DNA from: a virus
Length of the DNA: 56,744 bases
Reading direction: 5' to 3' (one strand)
Virus record (IMG/VR): IMGVR_UViG_3300048016_000009
Span: 1-56,744 of that record
Part shown: in pieces, positions 29,426 through 48,499 of the stretch
Position numbering within the stretch: the first letter of the stretch is position 1
Layout of the letters: every line of letters starts with the position of its first letter
Program-made: the position numbers and the translations under genes
Notes under the pieces: model-generated
The model's input: the letters and a program-made list of their open reading frames with translations, nothing else
Told to the model about the DNA's origin: nothing
Databases searched by the model: none

Positions 29426-29455
29426 TTGACAAGGTTTTTGCAAAGCCTTTATAAT
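29426..29455 (+). promoter_or_regulatory. Early promoter P4
   Basis: TTGACA (29426-29431), 18-base spacer, TATAAT (29450-29455), then TGAGGCCAT as at the other early promoters. A direct repeat TTTTGCAAAG lies on both sides of the -35. It drives the long structured leader and the next operon. Confidence 0.85.
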
Positions 29456-29461
29456 TGAGGC

Positions 29462-29772
29462 CATCGGTGCATCGCCACCAACAAATTGTTCTTTAAAAAA
29501 CCAACGTGGTGTCAGTATGGATGTGTCATGTACTACAAAGCATGACATGCCCTGAAATAGGCCAGCGTAATTGTAGATACGTAACGTTCTACACTGCTCA
29601 TAGCACATGAGGATGATAATGTGCATAGGAAACACATCATGGCATCGGGGTCGGTGCAGATAATGATGTGGCTTTCATAAGCTTTGTGACACAGGATATG
29701 ACGTTAGCTGAGTATCGGACAACGACATTGTGTCACAGGGTTTATATCAAGCCTCTCCTGAAAGGAAACAAA
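29462..29772 (+). ncRNA. Hairpin-train leader with boxA-like element
   Basis: There is no gene in ~310 bases. In order: GGTG/CACC (29466-29479); a boxA-like TGTTCTTTAAAAA (29487-29499); TGTCATG/CATGACA, 10-base loop (29524-29547); TGTAGA/TCTACA, 10-base loop (29572-29593); GCACAT/ATGTGC, 10-base loop (29603-29624). Next is a compound hairpin of CACATCAT/ATGATGTG (29633-29670) enclosing GCATCG/CGGTGC with a GGGT loop. Then TGTGACACA/TGTGTCACA (29685-29737), and TCCT-GAA-AGGA over the ribosome site (29756-29766). All outer stems are perfect. Candidate antiterminator or functional RNA. Confidence 0.65.
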
Positions 29773-29988
29773 ATGCTTAATGTGATGGACAATCTATGCT
29801 TTGAACAGTATGCATATGATGTAGCTAAACAGGCTTCACCACTTGCTCAAATTGAATACTTCAACGGTACACTGTACGTCACTGGATGCACTGCCCGTGA
29901 AGCATCGAAGATGCAGACAGCGTTTGAATGTAGCGGTGTTGGTGTTGTCGTGACACCGGGCACTGAGTACAGCTTCGACTTCGTTTAA
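29773..29988 (+). CDS. Small early protein, 71 aa
   Basis: An alpha/beta protein with no family I recognise; TGCTAREASKMQTAF.. and a beta C-terminus suggest a small two-layer fold. The next gene's product has a similar length and pattern (..YDTMAQAVAMRQAF..), so the two may be distant paralogues. Start 29773 is set by AAAGGAAAC in a small hairpin. First gene behind the long leader RNA. Confidence 0.78.
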   Translation: MLNVMDNLCFEQYAYDVAKQASPLAQIEYFNGTLYVTGCTAREASKMQTAFECSGVGVVVTPGTEYSFDFV

Positions 29989-29989
29989 T

Positions 29990-30004
29990 TTTTCCATAGG
30001 AAAA
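29990..30004 (+). promoter_or_regulatory. SD hairpin before the next gene
   Basis: TTTTCC-ATA-GGAAAA, a 6-bp stem with a three-base loop, contains the ribosome site and ends six bases before ATG 30011. It starts two bases after the upstream stop. Same design as the P1-P3 leaders. Confidence 0.6.
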
Positions 30005-30010
30005 CACACA

Positions 30011-30226
30011 ATGTATACAACCCGTAGAGGCGGCTTTGACCGTGAAGATGCACGTTTGCACTATGAGCAATTACAGCGTGACAGATACGTTCTCACCCTT
30101 ACCACCAGCAAAGGCGAGACAGCGATACTCACATACGACACAATGGCACAGGCTGTAGCGATGCGTCAAGCATTCATGAACACTGGCGATTATTGTGATG
30201 CAACTGTGAAGGATAAACTATGCTAA
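30011..30226 (+). CDS. Small early protein, 71 aa
   Basis: Basic N-terminus (MYTTRRGGFDREDARLHYEQ) followed by strands and a helix (DTMAQAVAMRQAFMNTGDY) that aligns by eye with the helix of the preceding protein. Unknown function. Overlaps the next gene by 7 bp. Confidence 0.78.
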   Translation: MYTTRRGGFDREDARLHYEQLQRDRYVLTLTTSKGETAILTYDTMAQAVAMRQAFMNTGDYCDATVKDKLC

Positions 30227-30609
30227 AAGTATATGTATACTTTAATCTGCACCGTAAATGCTTCAGCATCAAAGCGCTTGAGGGTAAAGACAAGGGCCGT
30301 GTCGTGGCACACAGTGACAAGGTGTTGATCTATGATGGCACGTTCAAGGTGTCAGAGGCAGGCCGTCAACGTGTCCTTCGTGAACGTAAAAAGAATGTAC
30401 ATGCTGGTGTTGTCGGTCAATGGGTCGGTAGCCTTGACGATGAGTTGACAATTGAGCGCATCGTTTACAACGGTACACCTGTGACATACAACCCATACAA
30501 GTATGACAGTTTCGTTCACTTGTACGGTATGCATCCAATTGAGACAGGCCGCTTAGTGGCACTGACTGTTAGCGAAAACAAACGTTCTCACATCAACGTC
30601 TGGAATTGA
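30220..30609 (+). CDS. Conserved phage protein, 129 aa
   Basis: MLKVYVYFNLHRKCFSIKAL and the segment AGRQRVLRERKKNVHAGVVG are a pattern found in many phages of Gram-negative hosts. Positively charged centre. Function unknown. Coupled to the previous gene by overlap. Confidence 0.82.
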   Translation: MLKVYVYFNLHRKCFSIKALEGKDKGRVVAHSDKVLIYDGTFKVSEAGRQRVLRERKKNVHAGVVGQWVGSLDDELTIERIVYNGTPVTYNPYKYDSFVHLYGMHPIETGRLVALTVSENKRSHINVWN

Positions 30610-30618
30610 CAGCGCTTT

Positions 30619-30690
30619 GTAACGTTATTGCACCACAGTAGCGTTACTGACTCGCTGTTGAGTCGTCGGACTAGCATCCTCCTAAAAGGA
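30619..30690 (+). promoter_or_regulatory. Hairpins ahead of the WYL_2-like gene
   Basis: Three small inverted repeats lie in the 86-base gap: GTAACG/CGTTAC (30619-30647), GACTC/GAGTC with a 6-base loop (30649-30664), and TCCT-AAA-AGGA over the ribosome site (30680-30690), five bases before ATG 30696. No clear promoter. Possibly a processing or translational control site. Confidence 0.45.
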
Positions 30691-30695
30691 AACAT

Positions 30696-30962
30696 ATGAA
30701 AATCTCAGACTTCATCGCCAAATCAAATGGCAAGTTCATCACCGTGTCCTTCATCAAGAAAGATGGCACAGCCCGTACACTGAACGGTCGTATCGGTGTG
30801 ACAAAACACTTGAAGGGTGGTGTTAGCACAGTCAACACAGACAAATATCTGGTGGTGTATGACACAGTCAACACAGGCTACCGATGTGTCAACAAAGACA
30901 CCATCGTGTCAGTGACATGCGAAGGCTTGACCATCCACAACAATGCAATGGTGACAGCATGA
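30696..30962 (+). CDS. WYL_2 / Sm-like SH3-barrel protein, 88 aa
   Basis: The sequence KFITVSFIKKDGTARTLNGR.., GVTKHLKGGVST and KYLVVYDTVNTGYRCVNKDT matches the small phage family related to the WYL_2 (DUF2693) Sm-like SH3 beta-barrel. Such folds bind nucleic acid, but the phage members are uncharacterised. The stop overlaps the next start (ATGA). Confidence 0.82.
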   Translation: MKISDFIAKSNGKFITVSFIKKDGTARTLNGRIGVTKHLKGGVSTVNTDKYLVVYDTVNTGYRCVNKDTIVSVTCEGLTIHNNAMVTA

Positions 30963-31102
30963 CACTCGACAAATTCAATGAGGCACACGTTGAAGCACTT
31001 GAAGAGTTATGTAACAGGGCGTTGCTTGCTTTAGATGAAGACTACTTCCCACAACTTCGCCAAGACTTGCGTGATATTCTAGGCATCACAGAGGACAATT
31101 AA
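30959..31102 (+). CDS. Short helical protein, 47 aa
   Basis: A short acidic helical protein (MTLDKFNEAHVEALEELCN..). Start 30959 overlaps the previous stop as ATGA. Stop precedes the next start by one base. Function unknown. Confidence 0.65.
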   Translation: MTLDKFNEAHVEALEELCNRALLALDEDYFPQLRQDLRDILGITEDN

Positions 31103-31103
31103 C

Positions 31104-31382
31104 ATGAGCAAAACATTCACCATCACCGTTTACTCAGATGTCGGTCACGCTTGGGGAAAAGTCAGGAAAGATGTGCTAGTCAACCTTGGCATTGCCGACA
31201 AGATTACCCGCTACAGCTATGCCCGTGGCGAGTATGCCTACCTCGAAGAAGACTGTGACCTGACCACCCTATGCATGGCACTGAACGAACGAGATACCCG
31301 TGTCAAGTTTGTTGAGAAACGTAGCAACAAAGACAGCCGTATCCGTAGCTATGAAAGGTATGAACATGGACAATTTCAGTAA
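31104..31382 (+). CDS. Conserved phage protein, 92 aa
   Basis: TVYSDVGHAWGKVRKDVLVN.. with YARGEYAYLEEDCDL is a recurring phage protein of unknown function, often in early regions. Basic C-terminal tail. Confidence 0.82.
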   Translation: MSKTFTITVYSDVGHAWGKVRKDVLVNLGIADKITRYSYARGEYAYLEEDCDLTTLCMALNERDTRVKFVEKRSNKDSRIRSYERYEHGQFQ

Positions 31383-31560
31383 GCAGATGGAAGCGTACAG
31401 CATCGCTCTGTACTTGAAAGGCTTTGGATACAAGGCAAAGGTTGATACCAATACTCTTGTGTGTTACGTTCAAGACCCTGTACTTGACACATTCGTTGTG
31501 TTGGCTGTGCCAACGATGGAACGTGCTCGTGACTTCATTGATGTGAGGACACGACAATGA
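31366..31560 (+). CDS. Small protein, 64 aa
   Basis: Start 31366 was chosen for GAAAGG seven bases upstream; overlaps the previous gene by 17 bp. An N-terminal helix is followed by a hydrophobic strand pattern (VCYVQDPVLDTFVVLAVP). Unknown. Confidence 0.68.
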   Translation: MDNFSKQMEAYSIALYLKGFGYKAKVDTNTLVCYVQDPVLDTFVVLAVPTMERARDFIDVRTRQ

Positions 31561-31652
31561 CATGGCCCTTCCCTACCTTCCCTAACCCACTCGACAGCGG
31601 ACATAAGCGTCCGCCGTTCAACCCCAATAACCATGAGGATGCACCGTTATGA
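31557..31652 (+). CDS. Proline-rich microprotein, 31 aa
   Basis: MTWPFPTFPNPLDSGHKRPP.. is encoded by a 32-codon frame with ATGA overlaps at both ends and GAGGA seven bases before its start. The overlap pattern continues that of its neighbours, so I judge it real. Proline and aromatic rich; function unknown. Confidence 0.55.
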   Translation: MTWPFPTFPNPLDSGHKRPPFNPNNHEDAPL

Positions 31653-32002
31653 AAAAGAAACAACCCACCGTTGCAGATGTGTTGCACTACGCCGCTGACA
31701 AATGCCTGCTTTCCCATTCACGATATGGTGAGGGATATGGCAAGGAAAAGTTCTCATGCTGTGCTGTTGACGAGGCCATCTACAAGATGACAGGTAGTCA
31801 ATACACTGGTGAATCAGCATTGCTTCGCCGCCGTGTCATATCCGGTTTGCAAGCTATGGGCTGTAGCACAGGTAGCTCAACCCTGTTCAGGAAGCATGGT
31901 GATATTCCCGACAACTACCAAGCCATCAACCACACTATCCAAGGTATGCGTTACATGTGGCTCAAGTGGGCAGCATTGATGGCAGAGGAACAAGGCGTAT
32001 GA
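31649..32002 (+). CDS. Hypothetical protein, 117 aa
   Basis: A soluble mixed protein with two adjacent cysteines (KFSCCAVDEAIY) and a tryptophan-containing helical C-terminus. It has TVADVLHYAADKCLL at the start. No family recognised. Linked by ATGA overlaps to microgenes on both sides. Confidence 0.75.
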   Translation: MKKKQPTVADVLHYAADKCLLSHSRYGEGYGKEKFSCCAVDEAIYKMTGSQYTGESALLRRRVISGLQAMGCSTGSSTLFRKHGDIPDNYQAINHTIQGMRYMWLKWAALMAEEQGV

Positions 32003-32109
32003 CAATGCTCAAACACATCCCCGTTGCTGTGTTTTGCCTCGCTTTGTTGTTCTCTACAGCATCATGCGAAGACAACACTACCCCATCACCAACAAAGGTA
32101 CAGACATGA
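31999..32109 (+). CDS. Lipoprotein microgene, 36 aa
   Basis: The frame encodes MTMLKHIPVAVFCLALLFST followed by ASC and a 13-residue polar tail. This is a short basic n-region, an 11-14 residue hydrophobic core and a lipobox with cysteine 23. The mature peptide would be only 14 residues. It overlaps the upstream stop (ATGA) and the next start (ATGA). Tiny phage lipoproteins such as T5 Llp block receptors, so superinfection exclusion is a reasonable idea, not shown. Confidence 0.62.
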   Translation: MTMLKHIPVAVFCLALLFSTASCEDNTTPSPTKVQT

Positions 32110-32195
32110 CCAATCGTGAACGGCTTAGCCGCATCATCTTTCTTCTGGCACTCATTACAGTGCTATTGCTTGACATGTTTTACTGGAGGCCGTAA
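32106..32195 (+). CDS. Single-span membrane microprotein, 29 aa
   Basis: A 30-codon frame with a basic start (MTNRERLSR) and one hydrophobic helix (IIFLLALITVLLLDMFYW). It overlaps the lipoprotein microgene and the next gene. Follows directly behind the lipoprotein, so the two may act together in the envelope. Confidence 0.58.
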   Translation: MTNRERLSRIIFLLALITVLLLDMFYWRP

Positions 32196-32398
32196 TGACT
32201 GACGAAACAATCAAAGAAACCCGTAGCCGTGGTCGCCCTGCTTATGCTGAGAAAGCACCACGTGAACTGCGTGATGACTTCGCCCTTGAGATAATGAAGG
32301 GTGTGCTTGCAAGCGGTGTGACAGTTGAAGACCCTGCCGCCCTGTCCCGCCATTGCTACAAGATTGCTGATGCACTATGTAAGGTGCGTGGTGAGTGA
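32195..32398 (+). CDS. Hypothetical protein, 67 aa
   Basis: Charged helical protein with a basic N-terminal segment (KETRSRGRPAYAEKAPRELR). ATG shares one base with the previous stop (TAATG). The RGRPAY string recalls an AT-hook, but a single copy is weak evidence. Unknown. Confidence 0.7.
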   Translation: MTDETIKETRSRGRPAYAEKAPRELRDDFALEIMKGVLASGVTVEDPAALSRHCYKIADALCKVRGE

Positions 32399-32576
32399 GT
32401 TGCAGGACAACGCCTACATGCTTGGTAAGGCACACGGTATGAGAGGACAAAGCAACCATGCTGACATCTTCTCACCCATTGGTTGTCATGAGTACAACCG
32501 ATACAACAAAGGCTATGCTGACGGCGTAGCTTCAACACAGAAAGACATTGAATATGATCAGCGAAATAGACATTGA
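32391..32576 (+). CDS. Ribosome-modulation-factor-like protein, 61 aa
   Basis: With a GTG start at 32391 the protein reads VSELQDNAYMLGKAHGMRGQ and later YNRYNKGYADGVAST. The G-x-x-x-G..P..W/Y-x-x-G-Y layout resembles small RMF-type phage proteins. RMF inactivates ribosomes in bacteria; a ribosome-binding role is only suggested. ATG 32418 is an alternative. Confidence 0.6.
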   Translation: MSELQDNAYMLGKAHGMRGQSNHADIFSPIGCHEYNRYNKGYADGVASTQKDIEYDQRNRH

Positions 32577-32793
32577 AGACTACGAACAGTTGCCAGTGCG
32601 TGAGCTTTACAAAGTGAAGCCACGTAGCTACATCAAGCTGCCTTGGCTTACCGATGATGACACACACAAGATCATCTTCTTTGATCACGTTGACGGTATG
32701 TATAGCTACTGCCTCACATTGACGAACGAAGTAGTACATCTTAGTGCATCAACACAGGTAACACCACTCGTGAAGAAAGCAAAGCCCGACTAA
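32554..32793 (+). CDS. Hypothetical protein, 79 aa
   Basis: MISEIDIEDYEQLPVRELYK.. continues with strands and ends KKAKPD. Start at ATG 32554 inside the end of the previous gene. Unknown. Its stop lies within the terminator at 32782-32807. Confidence 0.72.
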   Translation: MISEIDIEDYEQLPVRELYKVKPRSYIKLPWLTDDDTHKIIFFDHVDGMYSYCLTLTNEVVHLSASTQVTPLVKKAKPD

Positions 32794-32807
32794 ATCGTAG
32801 GGTTTTT
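32782..32807 (+). terminator. Terminator ahead of P5
   Basis: AAGCCC (32782-32787) pairs with GGGTTT (32800-32805, one G-U) followed by TTC. It encloses the upstream stop codon, the same CCC..GGGTTTTTC design as at P2 and P3. Confidence 0.6.
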
Positions 32808-32819
32808 CACCTACATTAT

Positions 32820-32849
32820 TTGACAAGAACTTTCAAAAGCCTTTACACT
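32820..32849 (+). promoter_or_regulatory. Promoter P5
   Basis: TTGACA (32820-32825), 18-base spacer, TACACT (32844-32849), then a GGCG/CGCC hairpin (32864-32875) near the predicted 5' end and a ribosome site AAGGAAAC before ATG 32897. Confidence 0.72.
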
Positions 32850-32896
32850 GAAGGCCCAACAACGGCGACATCGCCACAATCCACAAGGAAACAATC

Positions 32897-33733
32897 ATGG
32901 CCCACGTAATCTTCTCCCGTAATGCAGACAACTCCATCCTGACACCAGCACAGATTCAACATCGTGCTCCTGCTGCATTCAGCACCACCAAGTCAGACCG
33001 TTTGACTGATCGTTACGTATCCCTCAACACCAGCGATGTGCTGCCCATCATGGCAGACTATGGCTACCAACCAACACAGGCTGCACAAAAGCGTAGCCGC
33101 ACTGCCAACTCACAACATTCTGCTCACATGATTGCCTTCAGTCGTACCGATGACATCATCGAAGCTGGTGACATTCGCCCTGAAATCATCTTGTACAACT
33201 CTCACGATGGTAGTGGTTCTGTGAAGCTGTATGCTGGTGCATTCCGTTTCATCTGCTCCAATGGCATCGTTGCAGGTGATGGTTTTCAGTCTCGCATCTA
33301 CCACAGCAAAGCGTTGACAGGCTTTGAAGAGATGTTGCGTAACACAGTGGCTACATTGCCTGAGTTGATGGGACGCATTGACAAGATGCGTAGCCTGACA
33401 CTGACTACTGGCGATGCATATGATATGGCTATTGCTGGTGTTGCTACCCGTTGGGCTGACTACACAGGTCAACCGAAGGGTGCTTATGCTGTGGCACAGA
33501 CAGTGAAGGATGTGATGAATGTTCGCCGCATTGGTGACGAAGGCTACGATGCATGGACTGTGTTCAACCGCATTCAGGAAGGTGTAGTTCGTGGTAATGC
33601 AATGATTCGTTCGATCACTGACAAGCACCCTGAAGGTGTGATGCGTAAGGCTCGACCAGTCAACTCCATCAAGGAAGCTGTGCGTATCAACACAGAGTTG
33701 TGGAATATTGCTGACGAGTTTGCTACTGCGTAA
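32897..33733 (+). CDS. DUF932-type protein, 278 aa
   Basis: A 278-residue member of the DUF932 family found on phages and plasmids. Marks include AHMIAFSRTDDI, EIILYNSHDGSGSVKLYAGAFRFICSNG (split here as IILYNSHDGSGSV and YAGAFRFICSNG) and a helical C-terminal half. The family's biochemical role is unknown; some relatives sit near conjugation or anti-defence genes. It has its own promoter and is followed by a weak terminator and a tRNA. Confidence 0.88.
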   Translation: MAHVIFSRNADNSILTPAQIQHRAPAAFSTTKSDRLTDRYVSLNTSDVLPIMADYGYQPTQAAQKRSRTANSQHSAHMIAFSRTDDIIEAGDIRPEIILYNSHDGSGSVKLYAGAFRFICSNGIVAGDGFQSRIYHSKALTGFEEMLRNTVATLPELMGRIDKMRSLTLTTGDAYDMAIAGVATRWADYTGQPKGAYAVAQTVKDVMNVRRIGDEGYDAWTVFNRIQEGVVRGNAMIRSITDKHPEGVMRKARPVNSIKEAVRINTELWNIADEFATA

Positions 33734-33747
33734 TTGTTGATGGCCTT

Positions 33748-33765
33748 AACCGCTATGGGGTTTTT
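33748..33765 (+). terminator. Weak terminator after the DUF932 gene
   Basis: AACC (33748-33751) and GGTT (33759-33762) with a 7-base loop, followed by TTTC. Short stem, low confidence; it resembles the GGGTTTTTC ends of the early terminators. Confidence 0.4.
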
Positions 33766-33807
33766 CTTGTTAGACAATCGGTGACAGCATGGAGAGACAT
33801 GCAATCT

Positions 33808-33882
33808 GTTACGTTAGCTCAGCGGTAGAGCAGGCAGCTCATAATTGCTCGGTCATCGGTTCGATCCCGGTACGTAACACCA
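33808..33882 (+). tRNA. tRNA, anticodon CAT (Ile2 or elongator Met)
   Basis: A full cloverleaf: 7-bp perfect acceptor (GTTACGT/ACGTAAC), D-stem GCTC/GAGC, anticodon stem GGCAG/TTGCT with loop CTCATAA, T-stem ATCGG/CCGGT with loop TTCGATC, discriminator A and encoded CCA. The G1-C72 pair excludes initiator tRNA. The anticodon stem (GGC..) and variable loop look more like bacterial tRNA-Ile2, which reads AUA after lysidine modification, than elongator Met. A GCATG/CATGC hairpin lies just upstream. Confidence 0.93.
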
Positions 33883-33929
33883 TCTTCAACATCTAACATG
33901 GATCATGTTAGACAGCACAGGAAATGTTA

Positions 33930-34754
33930 ATGAATCAAAACAACGCTATCGGTATGTTCATGGGTCTATTCATTGGTGATGCACTCGGTGCGCCATTGGA
34001 ATTTACTGAGCCTAACACTGGCAACCCACTCAAGGACATGGTTGGTGGCGGTGTTCATGAGACAAGCCCCGGTGAATGGACAGACGATGGTGCTATGTCA
34101 ATGGCTATCGCTGATGCCTACCTCACATACAAACGCTTTGCCCCCGGCATCATTGCACAGAACCTCAAGCAGTGGCGTAACCGTGGTACGTTTGGTACTC
34201 GTGACTATTGCTTTGACATCGGCACTACCACAGCCGAGGCGCTGTCTGCATCATCTAACAAGCGTCCTTATGGTGGCTCTTGTGCATTGATGACAGACGG
34301 TAATGGTGGCATCATGCGAATGGCTCCACACATCCTGTTCAACCACAACAACAAGACGATGGCAATTGCTGAGTCTGTTGCTGGTGGACTCATCACTCAC
34401 GGTACTGGTAAGTGTGTTGCCTACAGTGCTGCACTGGCTGAAGAGTTGTTCGATGGTGCTCGACATGGCAACCAAACCCTATTCGACAAAGGCATCAAGG
34501 AAGAGAGTGGCACTGTGATGGGGTGCTATGCATCGGCATGGCAGTCTGTATGTGCAACAGAGTCCTTCGAAGACGCTGTTGTCCATGCCATCAACAAAGG
34601 TGGTGACGCTGATACAGTTGGTGCTGTGACAGGTATGATTGCTGGTCGTTTGTATGGCTACGACAGCATTCCTCAGCGCTGGATTGATGCACTGGTTGAC
34701 CACGACAAGTTGTTGGCGACAGCAACTATGCTTTACAACATGGGGAACACATGA
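33930..34754 (+). CDS. ADP-ribosylglycohydrolase
   Basis: A 274-residue DraG-type hydrolase. Visible motifs: GDALGAPLEF, EWTDDGAMSM with the two acidic metal ligands, DGNGGIMRM, and the C-terminal GGDADTVGAVTG with the second Asp pair. The family binds two divalent metal ions and removes ADP-ribose from proteins or related ligands. It could undo host ADP-ribosylation used in defence, or process NAD-derived compounds. Start at 33930 chosen over 33924 because AGGAAA is correctly spaced. A phage copy is unusual but not unique. Confidence 0.92.
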   Translation: MNQNNAIGMFMGLFIGDALGAPLEFTEPNTGNPLKDMVGGGVHETSPGEWTDDGAMSMAIADAYLTYKRFAPGIIAQNLKQWRNRGTFGTRDYCFDIGTTTAEALSASSNKRPYGGSCALMTDGNGGIMRMAPHILFNHNNKTMAIAESVAGGLITHGTGKCVAYSAALAEELFDGARHGNQTLFDKGIKEESGTVMGCYASAWQSVCATESFEDAVVHAINKGGDADTVGAVTGMIAGRLYGYDSIPQRWIDALVDHDKLLATATMLYNMGNT

Positions 34755-34767
34755 CAGGAGTCACATC

Positions 34768-34971
34768 GTGACAATTAGACTAACAACAGACGGCACAGCC
34801 GTTGTCGATACCGAATACTACTGGCAACCCATTGCAACATGTCCAAGGTCTGCGAAGGTGCAGCTACTGAGTGTGCATGGTGTTGCTGTGTACGGTGAAT
34901 GGCATGGTAAAGATAAACAATGGACACATTGGGCACCGTTGCCTAAGAAACCTAAGGAGGAAACTAAATGA
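34768..34971 (+). CDS. DUF551-like protein, 67 aa
   Basis: A GTG start with AGGAG seven bases upstream. YYWQPIATCPRSAKVQLL and the C-terminal WTHWAPLPKKP match the DUF551 phage pattern (WxPI..P..L..THWxPLP). Function unknown. Overlaps the next gene by 4 bases. Confidence 0.75.
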   Translation: MTIRLTTDGTAVVDTEYYWQPIATCPRSAKVQLLSVHGVAVYGEWHGKDKQWTHWAPLPKKPKEETK

Positions 34972-35201
34972 GAGACACGATAGACATGGCCCGTGAGGCT
35001 GGCTACGGCGAACACTTGTCGATGCTTCATGCGGTTGCGCTAAACCGCTTTGCTGAACTTGTTCGTGCTGATGAACGTGAGGCGTGTGCAAAGGTGTGTG
35101 AAGAAGTGCTAGAGCAATACAGAGGAACCAATATGGGGAAACACGCAGAACTTGTCGGTGACGCCTGCGCCAACGCCATCCGAGCAAGGGGGAACACATG
35201 A
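34968..35201 (+). CDS. Conserved phage protein, 77 aa
   Basis: MRDTIDMAREAGYGEHLS.. with LVRADEREACAKVCEE and AIRARGN is a recurrent small accessory protein in phages of beta- and gammaproteobacteria. Helical; function unknown. GC-richer than the early genes. Confidence 0.8.
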   Translation: MRDTIDMAREAGYGEHLSMLHAVALNRFAELVRADEREACAKVCEEVLEQYRGTNMGKHAELVGDACANAIRARGNT

Positions 35202-35905
35202 AAGACGAAGCATTGAAGCTGGCGCTGAAGGCGTTGGAGCTGTCCTCAGTTACCGTGGACAGCTTTGGCGTTCAAAGAAAAACTCAAGAAGCCATTACCG
35301 CCATCAAGCAAGCCCTTGCAGCACCTGTGCAGGAGCCTGTGGCGTGGCGATACGACCTTGCAAAGTACCGTGAAAACGACCTGCGTGGACGTCAGTGGGC
35401 GCACAGCGTTTTTTCACCAACAAAACCGTACATAGACGAGATGGTACGAAACGTGACGCCCCTTTACACCACCCCACCCGCACAGCCAGCACCTGTGCAG
35501 TCTTGTTTTTGCCCAAACTGCGAGGCGATGGGCAAAGAACTGGCGGCACTCAAAGCACAGCCACATGCGACCGACTTAACCCACGATCGGTGGGACGAAT
35601 GGCAGGACAAGTACGGGCTGATTCTTGAGCGCGATGCGCTAGACGACCTTTGCACCATGCTCGCAGCACAGCCAGCACCTGTGCAGGAGCCTGTGGCAAT
35701 TGCCTTAAACACCGGAACAAAGCAAGGTGTTAAGTGGCTCAAAAATGTTGAACACGGTGAGAGCCTTTACACCACCCCACCCGCAGCACAGCAGCAATGG
35801 ACGGGGCTGACGGAGGACGAAATAGAAGAATGCGCCAGCTATGGTTATAGGTATGACGTCGTTGCGGTCACTGAAGACAAACTCAAGGAGAAGAACACAC
35901 CATGA
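35198..35905 (+). CDS. Modular repeat protein with QEPVA units, 235 aa
   Basis: This accessory protein is built from repeated pieces: APVQEPVAW and APVQEPVAI, two LYTTPPA segments, CFCPNCEAMGKELAAL and a C-terminal WTGLTEDEIEECA unit. Such mosaic proteins are frequent in Burkholderiales phages and have no known function. DNA repeats of 23 bases underlie the protein repeats. Codon use is GC-rich compared with the early genes, consistent with recent exchange. Confidence 0.8.
   Translation: MKDEALKLALKALELSSVTVDSFGVQRKTQEAITAIKQALAAPVQEPVAWRYDLAKYRENDLRGRQWAHSVFSPTKPYIDEMVRNVTPLYTTPPAQPAPVQSCFCPNCEAMGKELAALKAQPHATDLTHDRWDEWQDKYGLILERDALDDLCTMLAAQPAPVQEPVAIALNTGTKQGVKWLKNVEHGESLYTTPPAAQQQWTGLTEDEIEECASYGYRYDVVAVTEDKLKEKNTP
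35321..35343 (+). repeat. Internal direct repeat, copy 1
   Basis: A 23-base sequence beginning GCACCTGTGCAGG is repeated exactly at 35675-35697; its first 12 bases also occur near 35489. It encodes the APVQEPVA unit and gives homology for module exchange. Confidence 0.85.
35675..35697 (+). repeat. Internal direct repeat, copy 2
   Basis: Exact second copy of the 23-base repeat at 35321-35343. A second repeated string (CTTTACACCACCCCACCCGC) occurs at about 35462 and 35764. Confidence 0.85.
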
Positions 35906-36135
35906 ATATTGTCATTTATTCCAAAAGCGGCTGCCCAAATTGTTTGACAGCCAAGCGGCTGCTGAACAGCAAGGGGATTGGGTACACCGAGGCTGATGTC
36001 GTCTTGTCGGAAAATGCAGTATCGCTTTTCACCAAGTACCCTGAAGCCCGTCAGCTTCCCCAAATCTTCATCAACGGTCAGCGTGTCGGTGGCTTGGCTG
36101 GACTGCAAGCAGCATTGAAGGAGTTGGGACTATGA
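35902..36135 (+). CDS. grx: Glutaredoxin
   Basis: A 77-residue glutaredoxin with the active site C11-P-N-C14 and the cis-proline/glutathione-binding stretch LPQIFINGQRVGG. It probably supplies electrons to the phage ribonucleotide reductase, whose large subunit keeps a C-terminal CxxC shuttle. It overlaps both the repeat protein and the integrase by 4 bases. Confidence 0.93.
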   Translation: MNIVIYSKSGCPNCLTAKRLLNSKGIGYTEADVVLSENAVSLFTKYPEARQLPQIFINGQRVGGLAGLQAALKELGL

Positions 36136-37220
36136 ACCTAGCCCGTTATATGCAGACAGTTGACCGTCACGGTGTTGTCAACTACAAGTATGCACCACCA
36201 CCCGATGCAGTTGAAGCAGGTGTTGTCAAGCGTAAGGCACTTGGCACTAGCCTTGTCGATGCCATCAACTATTGCAACGAACAGAACGATGTGCTTGATG
36301 AGTGGCGCAGGGAACATCGCTACCTCAAACATCTCACCACCAAGAGTACAGTATTGGACTTAGTCAAGAGCTATCGCAACTCAATCGACTACAACAAGTT
36401 GTCAGATAAGAGTAAGTATGACTACCTCTACTACCTCGATTGCTGGAAGGACGACAAAGCTTCACACACTACGTTGTTCAACACACGGTTGCAGGACATC
36501 ACAGCCCCTACAGCACAGCGTATCTACGAAGCCAATGCCGCACACAGTGTTAGCCTATCCAATCATGTGTTGGCTGTGTATCGATTGGTGTTCAGCTATG
36601 CCATACGCAATGGGTTCTGTACATTCAATCCGTTCAAGGCGGTGAAGCGACAGGCTGACAAGCCTCGCCGTGTGGTGTGGGAACGTGAACACATCAAAGC
36701 TTTCATGACTGTGGCGTTTAGCAACTACGAGACACGCAGCTTAGGACTCATTGTGTACACAGCCTATGTTGCGGCGCAGCGCTTAGGTGATATGCGTATG
36801 CTGACATGGGACAACTACAACCTTGAGACAGGGGTGTTGTCGTTAGAGCAGAGCAAGCGTAGGGCGAGGGTGTCTATACCGTTGTCGCAAGACTTGCAAG
36901 ACATGCTCAGGCAGCAGCACGATGGTGTTGGTTGGCAGAAGTGGATGATGCCGAAGTCAGACATGAAGCCGTACACCTTGCAGGGACTAGCGAAGGCTGG
37001 TAAACTTGTAATGGATGAGGCAGGCTTACCTGCTGAATTGCAATTGATGGACCTACGTAGGACAGCAGTGACAGAGATGGTTGGTGCAGGCGTAGCACTC
37101 ACTAACATCATGTCGTTGACAGGGCATGCAACACCGGGTTCATTGACACCGTATGTTCGCCACACACTGAAGAGTGCAACGGTGGCACAGGACATGCGTA
37201 ATTTATCACCAATGTTTTAA
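36132..37220 (+). CDS. int: Tyrosine recombinase / integrase
   Basis: A 362-residue integrase. An N-terminal arm and SAM-like core-binding domain (~55-170) precede the catalytic domain with Arg in AAQRLGDMRML, LMDLRRTAVTEM (box II Arg; the usual His two before it is Asp/Leu here), LTGHATPGS and the nucleophile Tyr in LTPYVRH. It should cut and join att sites. No repressor or excisionase is recognisable nearby, so lysogeny is uncertain; dimer resolution or pseudolysogeny are alternatives. It is embedded in the nucleotide-metabolism operon, between glutaredoxin and ThyX. Confidence 0.9.
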   Translation: MNLARYMQTVDRHGVVNYKYAPPPDAVEAGVVKRKALGTSLVDAINYCNEQNDVLDEWRREHRYLKHLTTKSTVLDLVKSYRNSIDYNKLSDKSKYDYLYYLDCWKDDKASHTTLFNTRLQDITAPTAQRIYEANAAHSVSLSNHVLAVYRLVFSYAIRNGFCTFNPFKAVKRQADKPRRVVWEREHIKAFMTVAFSNYETRSLGLIVYTAYVAAQRLGDMRMLTWDNYNLETGVLSLEQSKRRARVSIPLSQDLQDMLRQQHDGVGWQKWMMPKSDMKPYTLQGLAKAGKLVMDEAGLPAELQLMDLRRTAVTEMVGAGVALTNIMSLTGHATPGSLTPYVRHTLKSATVAQDMRNLSPMF

Positions 37221-37229
37221 GGAACTACA

Positions 37230-37868
37230 ATGACAGCAAGACTTATCTGGGCAACAGACGCTGACAAAATCATCGGCTATTGCGCTCGTGTTAGCAACCC
37301 CGACAACCAAGACAACCCCAACGTAGCAGGACTGCTTAATTATTGTGCAAAGAATCATCACTGGTCTGTGTTTGAAATGGCTAGTGCATGCATCGAAGTG
37401 TCCACCACCCGCGACATTGCACGACAGATCTTGCGACACAGAAGCTTCAGCTTCCAAGAATTTAGTCAACGCTATGCTGACGTTGCCAGCCTTGGTGATT
37501 GGGCAACTCGTGAGTGCCGATTGCAAGATACAAAGAATCGTCAGAACTCTTTAGAGACTGAGGACGAAACACTTAACCAGTGGTGGCAAGATGCACAACG
37601 AAAGGTTAAAGAAGAGGTTGAGGTGTTGTACTCCTTAGCCCTGCACAAAGGCATTGCCAAAGAACAAGCACGTGCTTTGTTGCCCGAAGGTCTGACACCG
37701 TCTAAGCTGTACGTCAACGGAACTATGCGTAGCTGGATTACATTCTTGCAAGCACGACTCGACCCGTCCACACAGAAGGAACATCGATTGGTGGCACAGG
37801 ATGTGTTGGCTGTGTTGCGTGGTGTTGCACCGATCACTGTTGGTGCTTTCTTTCCTGAACAGTCATGA
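37230..37868 (+). CDS. thyX: Flavin-dependent thymidylate synthase
   Basis: A 212-residue ThyX. The signature R69-H-R71-x7-S79 (RHRSFSFQEFS) is present, followed by RY. The enzyme makes dTMP from dUMP with FAD and methylene-tetrahydrofolate, feeding phage DNA synthesis. AAGGA precedes the start and the gene overlaps the next by 4 bases. Confidence 0.95.
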   Translation: MTARLIWATDADKIIGYCARVSNPDNQDNPNVAGLLNYCAKNHHWSVFEMASACIEVSTTRDIARQILRHRSFSFQEFSQRYADVASLGDWATRECRLQDTKNRQNSLETEDETLNQWWQDAQRKVKEEVEVLYSLALHKGIAKEQARALLPEGLTPSKLYVNGTMRSWITFLQARLDPSTQKEHRLVAQDVLAVLRGVAPITVGAFFPEQS

Positions 37869-38197
37869 TGTATGGGGGTAAGACAGGCTATCCCGCTGGC
37901 CTGTTGCAAGATGACCACACTAAGCTGAGTAAATGGTTTGCTTCCAAGCCAGATGCTCGTATGATTGTTAGACAAGTTTGTAAAGAAATACTGGAGAAAC
38001 AAATGACCACACTGCGATGCCCTGAATGCATGAGCGAACAAGTGACGCTTCAGCATTGGCAAACCTTTATGGCAAACACAATGGAGCACTACTGTCACAG
38101 TATGAAAACGCAAGATGATGACTCCCCATCACGCTGCCTTGATTGTGGATGGACAGGTTTGCACCGCGACTTAAACGGATATGGAGAACAACAATGA
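37865..38197 (+). CDS. Zinc-ribbon protein, 110 aa
   Basis: The first ~45 residues are soluble and include YPAGLLQDDHTKLSKWF. The rest has CPECMSEQ and CLDCGWTG, a four-cysteine zinc ribbon. An internal ATG at 38004 has GGAG at good spacing and would give a 64-residue stand-alone ribbon protein, so two products may be made. Possibly nucleic-acid binding. Confidence 0.75.
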   Translation: MMYGGKTGYPAGLLQDDHTKLSKWFASKPDARMIVRQVCKEILEKQMTTLRCPECMSEQVTLQHWQTFMANTMEHYCHSMKTQDDDSPSRCLDCGWTGLHRDLNGYGEQQ

Positions 38198-38448
38198 CCT
38201 GCACATGCCGTCCACTCAGCCCATTCCATTGGCAACAAAACCCACGACCATCCATCTTCCTTGATGACCCGTTCTTCAGAGCTAAGCAGTCTGCTAAGAC
38301 AGGCTCTCAACTGGCAAGCGAGGTGGTAGCACGTAAGCGTTCAGAGAACATTCATTACGGCACAATCTATGGCAGCGCACGTGAACGTGAAGACGCTGTC
38401 ATTCGTAGCAAACTCATGCATATTTACAGCAAGGTAGGTGTGAAATGA
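38194..38448 (+). CDS. Hypothetical basic protein, 84 aa
   Basis: MTCTCRPLSPFHWQQNPRP.. is proline-rich at the start; the remainder is helical and basic with REREDAVIRSK. Start 38194 has GGAG and overlaps the previous stop. Unknown function. Confidence 0.7.
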   Translation: MTCTCRPLSPFHWQQNPRPSIFLDDPFFRAKQSAKTGSQLASEVVARKRSENIHYGTIYGSAREREDAVIRSKLMHIYSKVGVK

Positions 38449-38915
38449 TAGTGTTCATTGGTAACTATCAAGACGACAACAGCCCTCGACAAGAGGATGT
38501 ATTCATTGACGAGTGGGATAGCTGGAATGCTGATCACACCATCGCCCTCATTGCTGCACCACTGCTTCAGCAACTGAAGCTGAACAAGCATGGCTCAGGT
38601 ATGGTGGATGATGAGGATGTACCTGAAGAGTTGCGTAGTACGTCAGCACCACCTGTTGAGGAATGGGACACTGATGCCAACCTTCACCTGCGTTGGGAGT
38701 GGGTGCTTGATGAAATGATTTGGGCTTTGACAGAGCATGCTCGTGGTGATGGTGACAGCAAGTTCTATGACCACAGTGAGGTTGATGAAACAGGCGACAT
38801 CATGGAGCAGGTTGCACAGATTAAGTGTGACTACGAAGGACTTGATGCCTACAACAAACGTAAGCAACGTGGTTTTGTGTTGTTCGGTAAATACTTTCAG
38901 AACTTGTGGGACTAA
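38445..38915 (+). CDS. Conserved acidic phage protein, 156 aa
   Basis: Contains DSWNADHTIALIAAPLLQQL, DDEDVPEELRST and RWEWVLDEMIWAL, a pattern shared by many T4- and T7-like aquatic phages. Very acidic. The function is unknown. Confidence 0.85.
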   Translation: MIVFIGNYQDDNSPRQEDVFIDEWDSWNADHTIALIAAPLLQQLKLNKHGSGMVDDEDVPEELRSTSAPPVEEWDTDANLHLRWEWVLDEMIWALTEHARGDGDSKFYDHSEVDETGDIMEQVAQIKCDYEGLDAYNKRKQRGFVLFGKYFQNLWD

Positions 38916-38916
38916 C

Positions 38917-39114
38917 ATGACTGAGCGAATAATTACAGACAGCAATGGGCGCAAGCATATTACAAATGAGCCTTTGCTTCACCAACCTTTAGCACAGCGC
39001 ACATGGATTGGACTGACTGATGATGAAAAGTTGCACATTGAAATCATGGGTGGTAAGTCAGATGTAATGTTGGCTGAAATGGTCGAAGCCAAATTACGGA
39101 GTAAAAACACATGA
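38917..39114 (+). CDS. Hypothetical protein, 65 aa
   Basis: MTERIITDSNGRKHITNEPL.. and a C-terminal TWIGLTDDEKLHIEIMGGKS, related to the WxGLTxxE unit at the end of the repeat protein at 35198-35905. It may be another exchangeable module. Function unknown. Confidence 0.72.
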   Translation: MTERIITDSNGRKHITNEPLLHQPLAQRTWIGLTDDEKLHIEIMGGKSDVMLAEMVEAKLRSKNT

Positions 39115-39260
39115 ACATTGAACAAGTCATCGTTGCCGCAACAGGCATCGGCTACCTCATCGTTGGTGTGCTGCAATGGACCAAGGGTGAGATGAGTAAT
39201 GGAATGATCTGGACAGGCTATGCGTTTGCTCAGATTGGTTTATGGCTCAACATCAAATAA
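39111..39260 (+). CDS. Two-span membrane microprotein, 49 aa
   Basis: A 50-codon frame with two hydrophobic helices (IVAATGIGYLIVGVLQW and MIWTGYAFAQIGLWL) separated by KGEMSNG. ATGA overlap with the previous stop; it runs into the start region of the primase-helicase gene. Small membrane proteins of this layout occur beside phage replication genes and could anchor the replisome. Confidence 0.65.
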   Translation: MNIEQVIVAATGIGYLIVGVLQWTKGEMSNGMIWTGYAFAQIGLWLNIK

Positions 39261-40888
39261 CTATGGCATTCATCCGCACACACATAAGCTGTGAACATTG
39301 CGGTAGTAGTGATGGTGCATCGCTTAACGACGACCACTCTACCTACTGCTTCGTGTGTAGCACACATACCCCCTCAACTGACAACATCACCATAGAAAGA
39401 CAACACATGACTGAAGTAGTCAAACCAAAAGACATGAGCTTCATTAAACGATACAACAACGGGGTAGCCGTTAGTATCAGTGAGCGTAGGCTTACTAAAA
39501 CTACCGTCGAAAAGTACGGTGTCGTTCGTGATGGTGACAGCTATCTGTTCCCTTACTTCGATGACACTGGATCGTTGGTGGCTGCTAAGATTCGCAACGT
39601 CAAGGACAAAATCTTCAGCACTGAGGGTGACTGGAAAGCTGGCACCTTGTTTGGTCAACACCTGTTCTCTAAAGGTGGTAAGACGATTACTATCGTTGAA
39701 GGTGAGGCTGATGCCCTTGCTGCGTTCCAGATGATTGGTGCTGGTAAGTATCCAGTTGTTTCGATTCGTAATGGCGCAGGCTCTGCTGTCAAGGATGTCA
39801 AGGCGCAGTATGAATACCTCGACAGTTTTGAAACCATCGTCATCTGTTTTGACAACGATGAGCCGGGACGTAAAGCTTCTAAGGAAGTTGCTGGTATCTT
39901 CGGAAGCAAAGCAAAGATTGTCAAACACGATCCAGCTTTTAAAGACGCATGCGACTACCTTGCTGATAGCAAAGAGCAGTTATTTATTAGTCGTTGGTGG
40001 TCCAGTGAACAACATACTCCCGATGGTTTGATCAACGGTGACAGCCTGTGGGATGAACTTAAAAAACCACGTCAAAAGCCTGATGCACACTGGCCCTACA
40101 CCACCCTTGACGGTATGCTTTGTGGCCTGCGTAAGCGTGAGCTTGTCACTGTTGCGGCAGGTACTGGTCAAGGTAAGAGCACGTTCTTGCGGCAGATCAT
40201 TCACCACTTGTTGATGACGACAGACGACAAGATTGGCTGCGCCTTCCTTGAAGAATCACCTTCACGTACAGCACAAGGCATCATGTCCATTGAAGCAATG
40301 AAGGCTTTGCATCTACCAACAACAGATTACACAGAGCAAGAGTTGCGTGATGCTTTTGAAAAGACAATGGGTACTGGTCGCGTGACAATGTTCTCTCACT
40401 TTGGTAGCCTTGACATTGACAACGTCATTGCTCGGTTGCGTTGGATGGCAAAGGGTATGGGGTGTAGCTGGATTATTCTTGATCACTACCAGATGATCTT
40501 GTCTGGTATGGATACTGATGAACGCAAGGGTTTGGATATGCTGCTGACAAAGCTTCGCACATTTGTCGAAGAGACTGGTGTTGGTTTGTTCGGTGTGTCG
40601 CATACTCGGCGTGAGTCTGGAAGCAAGGGTGCTGAGAACGGTGCAGAGATGACGCTGTCTTCGCTGCGTGGTACAGCAGGTATTGCTCAGTTGTCTGACG
40701 CTGTGATCGGATTGCAACGTGACCAACAACACGATGATGAGCGAGTACGTAACACCACCTGTGTCAGATTGTTGAAGTCAAGATTCACAGGCGAGACAGG
40801 TCCGGCAGGTTTCTTGTTATTCAACAAAGACATGCAGCGACTCATTGAGATTGATGATCCAACACCAGACGATCAAGATGTGTTGTGA
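39242..40888 (+). CDS. T7-type primase-helicase
   Basis: A 548-residue bifunctional protein. Cys17, Cys20, Cys36 and Cys39 form the zinc-binding domain. The Toprim primase has VEGEADALAAF and ICFDNDEPGRKA (~150-210), and the DnaB-like helicase has Walker A GTGQGKST (~307-314) and WIILDHYQMI. The C-terminus is acidic and ends DDQDVL, like the SSB of this phage, so both may dock on the same polymerase site. Start 39242 or 39263; neither has a strong ribosome site. Confidence 0.94.
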   Translation: MAQHQITMAFIRTHISCEHCGSSDGASLNDDHSTYCFVCSTHTPSTDNITIERQHMTEVVKPKDMSFIKRYNNGVAVSISERRLTKTTVEKYGVVRDGDSYLFPYFDDTGSLVAAKIRNVKDKIFSTEGDWKAGTLFGQHLFSKGGKTITIVEGEADALAAFQMIGAGKYPVVSIRNGAGSAVKDVKAQYEYLDSFETIVICFDNDEPGRKASKEVAGIFGSKAKIVKHDPAFKDACDYLADSKEQLFISRWWSSEQHTPDGLINGDSLWDELKKPRQKPDAHWPYTTLDGMLCGLRKRELVTVAAGTGQGKSTFLRQIIHHLLMTTDDKIGCAFLEESPSRTAQGIMSIEAMKALHLPTTDYTEQELRDAFEKTMGTGRVTMFSHFGSLDIDNVIARLRWMAKGMGCSWIILDHYQMILSGMDTDERKGLDMLLTKLRTFVEETGVGLFGVSHTRRESGSKGAENGAEMTLSSLRGTAGIAQLSDAVIGLQRDQQHDDERVRNTTCVRLLKSRFTGETGPAGFLLFNKDMQRLIEIDDPTPDDQDVL

Positions 40889-40939
40889 TATTTAGATCAT
40901 ATGTTATACCTACTATGTTCAAATACTAGGAGGTATAAT

Positions 40940-41437
40940 ATGAGAACACATAAAGTTTGTAATGAGTGCGGTGAGAACAAGGTTGTTGAGGACTACTACG
41001 CGAGACAATGTAAGCACACCAAGAAAGATGGAACTATTTCGTACTACACCTATCTTAAACCAATCTGTAAAAGTTGTTGGGATAAGGAATCTAGGCAGTG
41101 GTTTAGAAAAAACTGGCTTCAACACTTAGTTCAACAAGCAAAGAATCGTGCGAAACAAAAAGGACTTCCCTTTGACATTACCGCTGATGACATAGAAGTT
41201 GTGAAGTTCTGTCCGTATCTGGGTATTGAAATCAAACAAAACCTAGATGCAAAAGGCCCATCTCATAACTCACCAACAATTGATAGGATCGTTCCTGAAA
41301 AGGGATATGTTAAAGGAAATGTACAACTTATGTCTCATAAGGCAAATGCAATGAAGTACAACGCAAGCATTGATGAACTTCTATATTTTGCTAATAAGAT
41401 AATTGAGTTGCACTCCACAGATGAAAAGGTAAAATAA
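40940..41437 (+). CDS. HNH-type homing endonuclease candidate
   Basis: A 165-residue nuclease. Two N-terminal Cys pairs (CNECGENK, CKSC) form a zinc finger, and the C-terminal part has TIDRIVPEKGYVKGNVQLMS then AMKYNAS, an HNH-like (His-Me) pattern with Asp replacing the first His. AT-rich relative to neighbours and inserted between helicase and polymerase genes, as homing endonucleases often are. Start 40940 chosen for GGAGG. Confidence 0.82.
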   Translation: MRTHKVCNECGENKVVEDYYARQCKHTKKDGTISYYTYLKPICKSCWDKESRQWFRKNWLQHLVQQAKNRAKQKGLPFDITADDIEVVKFCPYLGIEIKQNLDAKGPSHNSPTIDRIVPEKGYVKGNVQLMSHKANAMKYNASIDELLYFANKIIELHSTDEKVK

Positions 41438-41439
41438 AC

Positions 41440-41589
41440 ATGAGCGAAGTAGAACAATATTGGGAAGCCATTAGAAAGAAGTGGTCACATCCTCTACCAC
41501 AATATCACCAGCTTGACCCAATGGAGCAGGCGATGCTTGTTCAATCGATCAACATCTTATTGCAGATAATTAACAACCGGAGAACATGA
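41440..41589 (+). CDS. Small protein, 49 aa
   Basis: MSEVEQYWEAIRKKWSHPLP.. ending NILLQIINNRRT. A helical, tryptophan-containing protein. The stop overlaps the next start (ATGATG). Unknown. Confidence 0.62.
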   Translation: MSEVEQYWEAIRKKWSHPLPQYHQLDPMEQAMLVQSINILLQIINNRRT

Positions 41590-41717
41590 TGAAAAAGACC
41601 TATGCAGAACTTGAGCGTGAAGCTTATATGGCAGGCAACACCATACTTGCAAAGCTTTATGCTGAGCTTGATGATGCTGAGCAGGAGTTGCTTAGCCGTG
41701 AATATGGAGGTACATAA
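41586..41717 (+). CDS. Small helical protein, 43 aa
   Basis: MMKKTYAELEREAYMAGNTI.. and an acidic second helix. Two adjacent ATGs (41586, 41589) are possible starts. Coupled by overlaps to both neighbours (TAATG at 41715). Unknown. Confidence 0.62.
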   Translation: MMKKTYAELEREAYMAGNTILAKLYAELDDAEQELLSREYGGT

Positions 41718-41875
41718 TGAGTGATGGTGGTAAAGGCAGCGCACAACGACCACGTTCTGTAGCTGATGAAGAATGGGCCAACCGATGGGATGCCATCTTT
41801 GGTAGAGACAAACCTAAGCAACCTAAGAAGGACAACGATGACGACATGGACAAGCCGTTGCCTGATCGAAGGTGA
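41717..41875 (+). CDS. Conserved small protein, 52 aa
   Basis: MSDGGKGSAQRPRSVADEEW.. with NRWDAIFGRDK is a short protein found in many phages. Probably disordered C-terminus (DNDDDMDKPLP). Function unknown; overlaps the next gene by 38 bp. Confidence 0.78.
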   Translation: MSDGGKGSAQRPRSVADEEWANRWDAIFGRDKPKQPKKDNDDDMDKPLPDRR

Positions 41876-42305
41876 TCACTTGTGTGTCTGCACAACTGAG
41901 GCAGACTATCACACCACCCTCAAGTATTTGAAGGTGCCGATAGCTGAGTGGGACAGATGGCTGATTCATGAATCGTTAGCAACCACTCACTACTTCAACA
42001 CACCAAAGGGTAACAGAGTCACCATTGTGTGCATACCTGTTACGCCTGAGACAGACGGTATTGATGTTGCAACATTGTTAGTACACGAAGCTGTGCATGT
42101 TGTGCAGGAATACTTCAGGTTCATTGGTGAAGACAATCCCGGCAACGAGATAGAAGCATACGCTATTCAGAATGTGAGCGCATCACTGATGAGGGCGTAC
42201 CGTGATAAACTATTTCCGAAACCAAAGAAGGAAAAGAAAGATGGATTACATATGGGACATAGAGACATACAAGACAGCGTTCACGTTCTCAGCGATCAGT
42301 GCTGA
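41838..42305 (+). CDS. HExxH metallopeptidase-like protein, 155 aa
   Basis: The central LLVHEAVHVVQEYF carries H83-E84-x-x-H87, with E104/E106 (GNEIEAYAIQ) as a plausible third ligand, the zincin layout. AAGGA lies before ATG 41838. The target is unknown; it might process phage or host proteins. It overlaps the polymerase gene by 65 bp. Confidence 0.78.
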   Translation: MTTWTSRCLIEGDHLCVCTTEADYHTTLKYLKVPIAEWDRWLIHESLATTHYFNTPKGNRVTIVCIPVTPETDGIDVATLLVHEAVHVVQEYFRFIGEDNPGNEIEAYAIQNVSASLMRAYRDKLFPKPKKEKKDGLHMGHRDIQDSVHVLSDQC

Positions 42306-44310: not shown

Positions 44311-44369
44311 AGCATGTAGGAAGCTGACCCCTACTGAATTGGTCAGCATTAAACTCAAAGGAAACTCAA

Positions 44370-44780
44370 ATGAGTGATAAGTTGAAAATCAAAGCCGATG
44401 TATATTGGGCCTCTCTGAATCGTAAGAATGAAATGGCTGATGCTTACACGGTTGATCTGTGTAACCTGTCTGACAAAGCAGTTGCTGCACTGGAAGACAT
44501 GGGTATCTCGGTGCAAGAGAATACAGAGAAGAAGCCTGAGCAGGGTAAGTACATCACTTGCAAGAGCCAGCGTCCCATCAAAGCCTACGACACCGATGGT
44601 GATGAAATCATTGAAGACATTGGCAATAGCAGCAAAGCAATTTGTATGATTGGTAGCTATGCTTGGACATACAAGAACAAGAAAGGCGTTAGCCCTTCAT
44701 TGGCTAAGCTGGTTGTTACAGACTTGGTTGCCTATGCTGGTGGTGCTGACCTCTCCGCTGACGACGAAGACGTTCTGTAA
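44370..44780 (+). CDS. ssb: Single-stranded DNA-binding protein, gp2.5-like
   Basis: A 136-residue protein with an OB-like strand order and an acidic C-terminal tail (LSADDEDVL), as expected for T7 gp2.5-type SSBs whose tail binds polymerase and helicase. It lies between polymerase and exonuclease genes. AAAGGAAAC precedes the start. The identity rests on position and tail, since family motifs are weak. Confidence 0.72.
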   Translation: MSDKLKIKADVYWASLNRKNEMADAYTVDLCNLSDKAVAALEDMGISVQENTEKKPEQGKYITCKSQRPIKAYDTDGDEIIEDIGNSSKAICMIGSYAWTYKNKKGVSPSLAKLVVTDLVAYAGGADLSADDEDVL

Positions 44781-48474: not shown

Positions 48475-48499
48475 GTGGTATAACTCCTACCCCATCCCT

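Follow-up and report, generated by a model that had tools for sequence, protein, structure and literature searches.

The window considered here, that is the whole stretch of DNA analysed, is a single virus record of 56,744 bases in which the structural genes run leftward and the early and replication genes rightward. The terminase, portal and primase-helicase/DNA polymerase place it with the HMO-2011-type podoviruses, which have the same genome layout; its portal is 80% identical to that of MW202701 (Manatee Spring phage) and 72% identical to that of HMO-2011. Unlike the window, neither of these relatives has the leader RNA described below. An ADP-ribosylglycohydrolase gene (33924-34754, plus strand; Pfam PF03747, E 1e-48), for a possible counter-defence enzyme, is present in most RNA-bearing relatives compared and absent from both HMO-2011 and MW202701.

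An untranslated leader of ~310 nt (29462-29772), with a conserved core of 187 nt in the window, lies between a strong promoter and the first gene of a long rightward block (Table 1). The RNA start is predicted near 29462 from the position of the promoter, which the first-pass annotation had called near-consensus and which is in fact a perfect sigma-70 promoter directly upstream. The same annotation held that no protein is encoded here, and indeed no plausible open reading frame spans the leader; the frame that a program lists at 29668-29988 is that of the ATG gene starting at 29773, lengthened upstream to a GTG. Strong sigma-70 promoters occur in the window at 27965, 28258, 28571 and 29426, and only the last is followed by the leader. 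These four plus-strand promoters are near-identical, with TTGAGGCCA common to all behind the -10, and they constitute repeated cassettes, each with its own small gene, or the leader, behind it. The leftward structural genes were checked for a boxA-like leader of their own, and none was found.

Table 1. Features of the leader and its surroundings in the window
Feature	Position	Strand	Remarks
Sigma-70 promoter TTGACA-18-TATAAT	29426..29455	+	12/12 consensus match
Small hairpin GGTG/CACC directly 5' of boxA	29466..29479	+	Position of boxB in rrn leaders; judged by eye
boxA TGTTCTTTAAAAA	29487..29499	+	Core kept in 58/59 homologues; 13-mer is that of Burkholderiales rrn boxA
P2 stem	29507..29564 (29507-29510 with 29561-29564)	+	98.7% of cells paired; 4/4 pairs changed on both sides
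PK1 pseudoknot	29565..29593 (S1 29565-29568 with 29579-29582; S2 29572-29577 with 29588-29593)	+	
PK2 pseudoknot	29595..29624 (S1 29595-29599 with 29609-29613; S2 29603-29608 with 29619-29624)	+	Loop UGAUA 29614-29618
P5 compound hairpin	29634..29669	+	Loop (C/U)GGGGUCG at 29646-29653
Variable 3' hairpin	29677..29745	+	17-nt imperfect repeat, 82% complementary
First gene	29773..29988	+	71 aa, no family; Shine-Dalgarno AAAGGA 29761-29766
Codirectional early/replication block	29773..54211	+	From ORF layout and families

Nearly all genes from the leader to 54211, ~24 kb in the window, point rightward, and the families recognized among them include an integrase, Thy1, primase-helicase, DNA polymerase, exonuclease, RNA ligase (46930-47835, plus strand, Pfam PF09414) and ribonucleotide reductase; from this layout we infer that the block is probably co-transcribed. 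The leader heads at least 18 kb of codirectional genes in the window and in six relatives from four clades, and few recognizable sigma-70 promoters are found inside those blocks. Exactly one copy was found in 23 of 24 records searched, the covariance model finding none in the 24th. The distance from P5 to the following ATG is 56-101 nt in nearly all loci, and the gene that opens the block comes from many families, also where the leaders are identical; L004, for example, has the same leader as the window and a different first gene. The DNA polymerase also varies between clades while the leader is constant. The single copy, the swapping of the first gene, the position at the head of the block and the varying polymerase together argue that the leader serves the whole transcript and not one gene. 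The slot immediately behind it (29773-30220 and related loci) holds small interchangeable genes that are often gained or lost between near-identical phages, as between the window and L004. A recurrent ribosome-binding motif, TCCTGAAAGGAAACA, is seen at 29750-29772, at 30680-30695 and at many other gene starts; being itself a short inverted repeat (UUCC/GGAA), it could in part mask the Shine-Dalgarno sequence.

A search with the upstream protein gave 22 related loci, the nine closest of which have the same leader, and a wider set was gathered by means of a downstream L5-gp82-like protein together with the P5 hairpin motif. The resulting 59 distinct core homologues, whose selection made no use of boxA, all come from uncultured phage contigs; the searches gave ~60 distinct leaders in several clades, with L128 the most distant and with carriers that are mostly freshwater-type phages. 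Two further scans and a covariance model added nine distinct members, of which six, at 56-102 bits, are divergent. Since one of the two scans demanded boxA, the boxA in its matches is no independent evidence; members from the other scan have boxA without having been selected for it.

Outside these contigs the family was not encountered. The Rfam search that the first-pass annotation had recommended was run on Rfam 15, and the window leader matches no described family at the gathering threshold or at E values up to 10, while L138 and L128 give only chance matches far below threshold. Distant blastn with three representatives found nothing in 50,697 phage records. When 84,980 genomes of bacteria and archaea were scanned for the pattern, 28 matches came up, of which none fits the family HMM, and a covariance model found nothing in 399 Burkholderiales and 398 same-phylum genomes; no prophage or named host emerged from these genome searches, which had no positive control. 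With no match in phage isolates, bacterial genomes or Rfam, contigs of uncultured phages are thus the only place where the family is known, and a survey of open-access literature found no description of it.

Calculated folding energy gives an uneven picture: relative to shuffled sequences the z score is -3.2 for the whole leader, -5.7 for 29600-29775, and only -1.75 for the first 139 nt. Folding energy alone is insufficient to settle the structure, and the covariation among homologues is decisive. Thirty-seven pairs in 8 helices were named on a MAFFT alignment of the 59 core sequences made with no structure input. Standard pairs occupy 97.0% of the 2183 cells as against 77.5% in shuffled alignments, 27 of the 37 pairs have changes on both sides, and the covariation score of 0.645 compares with 0.257 on shuffling (equalled in 0 of 500 shuffles) and with 0.05-0.13 for slid structures (maximum 0.129). 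The nine pseudoknot pairs taken alone are 96.0% paired with a covariation of 0.743 vs 0.253. Over the 13,249 column pairs of 25 sequences nonredundant at 90%, an APC-corrected G-test places four PK2 S1 pairs out of five at ranks 1, 11, 12 and 28, whereas PK1 S1 is weaker, with pairs at rank 27 and 124 and two others that vary mainly on one side. On a tree from which the pseudoknot S1 columns were left out, the successive PK2 S1 positions show at least 12, 5, 7, 6 and 5 changes of pair state, the independent changes numbering 12 at columns 132-150, 7 at 134-148 and 6 at 135-147.

The divergent later members extend this pattern, as judged by eye. PK1 forms in all six, as GCCC/GGGU or GCGU/ACGU, and PK2 in five of six, as UCGCC/GGCGG, UCGCU/GGCGG, AUGCC/GGCAU or CAUU/GAUG, L314 being uncertain; the AUGCC/GGCAU version of L312, which lies outside the set from which the structure was derived, fits PK2. 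In L305 and L289 the GGGGUC loop is carried on an entirely different stem, GUAAGAC/GUCUUAC. A candidate base triple in PK2, in which loop base 154 tracks pair 135-147 in 58/59 sequences, was dropped when the homologues L283 and L311 were found to break it. The first-pass annotation had itself named absence of covariation in homologous leaders as the observation that would count against it; the comparison was run and covariation was found. On this comparative evidence the leader is a conserved, structured non-coding RNA, and the sequences gathered here indicate that it represents a family of structured RNAs that is new and strongly conserved among uncultured phages. That the boxA-like sequence and the fold arose by coincidence in ordinary AT-rich intergenic DNA might be argued from the shortness of boxA and from a first leader half that folds barely better than shuffles; covariation and boxA conservation over 59 sequences refute this for the structure and leave the idea practically negligible.

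The inverted repeats listed in the first-pass annotation are all present, including a compound hairpin at 29633-29670, as are the three consecutive stems with 10-base loops (TGTCATG/CATGACA, 29524-29547; TGTAGA/TCTACA, 29572-29593; GCACAT/ATGTGC, 29603-29624). However, two of these three are H-type pseudoknots in which the loops pair with upstream bases, the 10-base "loops" being largely pseudoknot pairing strands, so that the description of the locus as a train of hairpins misses its main feature, two tandem H-type pseudoknots. The P2 stem ahead of them encloses a conserved UCRG..(C/A)UAU/AAAU module and an apical hairpin (29524-29547 in the window) that has a GUGACAG loop in many relatives. 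PK1 S1 is 95.8% paired with two pairs changed on both sides, and PK1 S2 95.2% with 6/6 such pairs. PK2 S1 is 96.3% paired with both-sided changes in 5/5 pairs; the window, like its closest relatives, keeps 4/5 of these pairs and has one G-G mismatch. The outer stem of P5 is 96% paired with 5/6 pairs changed on both sides, and its loop is invariant in 59/59. The repeat that follows P5 is the least conserved part of the leader, and its loop in the window carries ~40 extra bases.

What had been described as a boxA-like element behind the promoter is a genuine boxA with a core conserved among homologues. The core TCTTTAANA, TCTTTAA[AC]A, is found in 58/59 core sequences, the exception being L128 with TGATCATTAACA at this place, and its mean column entropy is 0.09 bits vs 0.80 bits for other unpaired columns. 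The positions that vary in the leader boxA (the third base, and A/C ahead of the final A) are the degenerate positions of the published consensus GYTCTTTAANA (PMC5725501), the third base being additionally A, beyond that consensus. In the window the 14-mer consisting of boxA and its preceding T occurs as a single exact copy. The identical 13-mer precedes the rRNA in two 16S leaders of Burkholderiales, L256 and L259, each lying at the end of a contig, and it also occurs in Burkholderiales 16S-23S spacers, that is 23S leaders, behind tRNA-Ile and tRNA-Ala; a further Burkholderiales sequence, L258, has GTTCTTTAAAAA, with the 16S start AGAGTTTGAT ~150 nt further on. The consensus boxA of 58/59 leaders has, at the sequence level, what a putative NusB-S10 site of the nut type calls for. 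The small hairpin just 5' of boxA reads, by eye, GGTG/CACC, GATG/CATC or GACG/CGTC in close relatives, and small hairpins of unrelated sequence stand at the same spot in other clades. RNAalifold paired the boxA core (UCUU) with an RRGA purine stretch behind PK2 (A2 columns 4-7 with 164-167; in the window, boxA with ~29627-29630), a pairing that was not accepted because nearly all its changes are A/G on one side only and because, by eye, it breaks down in L054, L050, L305 and L314; a mask on boxA is nevertheless conceivable.

Comparison with known systems upholds one part of the earlier suggestion that the leader resembles nut or put, namely the boxA sequence and the cis leader position, and does not bear out the other: the leader is not put in form and appears to be no complete nut site, no boxB/N pair being recognized. 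Like the phage leader, lambda nut (boxA and boxB, with N and the Nus factors) is an early leader at a strong promoter in which boxA is followed ~8 nt on by a hairpin, and it heads a long early block read by the host RNA polymerase. Unlike nut, the present leader has a hairpin that is not recognized as boxB, followed by two pseudoknots and the invariant GGGGUC hairpin, and is accompanied by no recognized N-like protein: the hairpin 3' of boxA is there, and no N family match was found among the ORFs searched, N proteins being short and quick to diverge. With the rrn leader (boxB-boxA-boxC) it shares the small hairpin just 5' of boxA and the Burkholderiales 13-mer, but it has by eye no boxC-like motif, no rRNA behind it, and a pseudoknot domain instead; it is not an rrn antitermination leader as defined. 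To our knowledge, put is the only class of phage RNA antiterminator studied in structural detail. HK022 put and the leader have in common that they are RNA-coded, stand at the start of early phage transcripts and involve no recognized phage protein. The put RNA is ~70 nt with two stem-loops and no boxA, and it binds RNA polymerase directly (PMC9378689). Its contact is with the beta' zinc-binding domain, and its antitermination is factor-independent. The leader, with its ~187-nt core, boxA and two pseudoknots, matches put in neither sequence nor shape and falls outside that definition. The bacterial EAR, or eps-associated RNA, is a processive antitermination RNA; like the leader it is large and structured and lies in cis close to where a long operon begins, but the Rfam search with the leader gave no match. 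Taken together, the sequence relationships are best explained if the leader is a new form of early transcription control of the nut/rrn/put type.

Regarding what such control might consist of, boxA binds NusB-S10, and a polymerase carrying such a complex withstands Rho and, when N is present as well, intrinsic terminators too (PMC4807359, PMC5725501). Antitermination does not follow automatically, since the Nus complex on E. coli rRNA reportedly contributes to RNA maturation more than to antitermination (PMC4807359), and the boxA of the suhB leader mediates repression (PMC5725501). The biology of boxA, the position of the leader, its cis arrangement, the lack of a phage RNA polymerase among the window ORFs tested, and the lack of any N or Q family match in the early ORFs searched, the latter agreeing with the first-pass annotation, make a Nus-recruiting antiterminator the likeliest function, one whose pseudoknot domain would replace or supplement N. 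We give an about even chance to the proposal that the leader is a cis-acting, Nus-recruiting RNA that modifies the host RNA polymerase for antitermination, with RNA structure in the place of N. NusB-S10 would bind boxA as the leader emerges from the polymerase and, with NusA and NusG, stay tethered to the elongating enzyme; the P2 module, the two pseudoknots and the invariant GGGGUC loop would complete the complex, on RNA polymerase directly or via Nus factors, so that this domain would do the job of N and boxB in lambda. The modified polymerase would then resist termination, mainly by Rho, across the untranslated leader and the early/replication block. Against the proposal, HMO-2011 and MW202701 live without the leader RNA. 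A more specific version, which we advance only tentatively, makes the leader a self-sufficient antiterminator and nut-put hybrid, in which boxA might recruit the Nus complex and the double pseudoknot and GGGGUC hairpin might contact RNA polymerase, replacing N altogether.

The nut-like spacing of boxA and hairpin would also suit a site that needs an unrecognized phage protein, a diverged N analogue that is encoded among the small early genes and binds P2 or the pseudoknots. Several small early ORFs without annotated function do lie upstream, one of which (28336-28560) is absent from both RNA-less relatives and, among the RNA-bearing genomes compared, is missing only from clade 2. However, its product has a hydrophobic N-terminal stretch and is not arginine-rich, no tested early ORF matches an N or Q family, and no tested gene is in every RNA-bearing clade and missing from both RNA-less relatives; such a protein-dependent site seems fairly unlikely.

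Two other functions are made less likely by the conservation of boxA and the cis pattern. The RNA itself might be the product: non-coding and made in abundance early on, it would bind NusB-S10, the ribosome, RNA polymerase or some other host factor in trans, with boxA shielding it from Rho and aiding its folding; its complex fold with the invariant unpaired motifs GGGGUCG and UGAWA, its strong promoter, and the promotion of rRNA maturation by boxA-Nus complexes (PMC4807359) would fit. But the leader is always in cis, directly before a Shine-Dalgarno sequence and gene and never elsewhere, no conserved terminator stands behind it, and it is present in single copy only, so that a trans-acting RNA seems rather improbable. 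A structured 5' end that terminates at the Shine-Dalgarno sequence could alternatively guard the long mRNA from 5'-end-dependent decay or control its translation, with boxA secondary or serving repressive feedback as in suhB, for which boxA-mediated repression is the precedent (PMC5725501). However, the first gene differs among close relatives, which argues against gene-specific control, and a stabilizer has no need of invariant loops or a near-invariant boxA; we regard a stabilizing or translational leader as quite improbable.

The family bears on how phages outside the lambdoid group keep the host polymerase on long early operons, and it offers a well-defined object, a boxA and a pseudoknot domain with specific base pairs. 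If the Nus-recruiting proposal is true, a folded RNA is able to take the place of N within a Nus complex, and if the hybrid version holds, the host rRNA antitermination machinery has been turned into a phage early switch. Should the antitermination reading be false, uncultured phages would still possess a new structured RNA, strongly conserved, that calls for a functional explanation.

Inside the window block one canonical intrinsic terminator was found, AGCAGCTTCGGCTGCT-TTCTTTTC at 48501-48516. In several clades such a terminator stands ~30 nt upstream of the reductase gene, its sequence being GGGAGCTTCGGCTCCC-TTTTTT in others. It would need read-through, but RNA-less MW202701 has a counterpart at the same place; it is thus not specific evidence and was dropped as a special target of antitermination. 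The module before the reductase gene (48440-48548, plus strand, in the window; homologous sites in L262, L264-L267 and L268 at 6710-6770) consists of a GGTATAAC motif, a possible -10 that is present at most of the sites, and then a textbook intrinsic terminator, in the RNA-less relative as well; a promoter running straight into a terminator would itself require read-through. In part of one clade (L132, L134, L135, L140, L141 and L142) a terminator-like hairpin, GAAGC..GCTTC followed by TCTTTTCC, lies between P5 and the first gene, a natural candidate for a read-through target.
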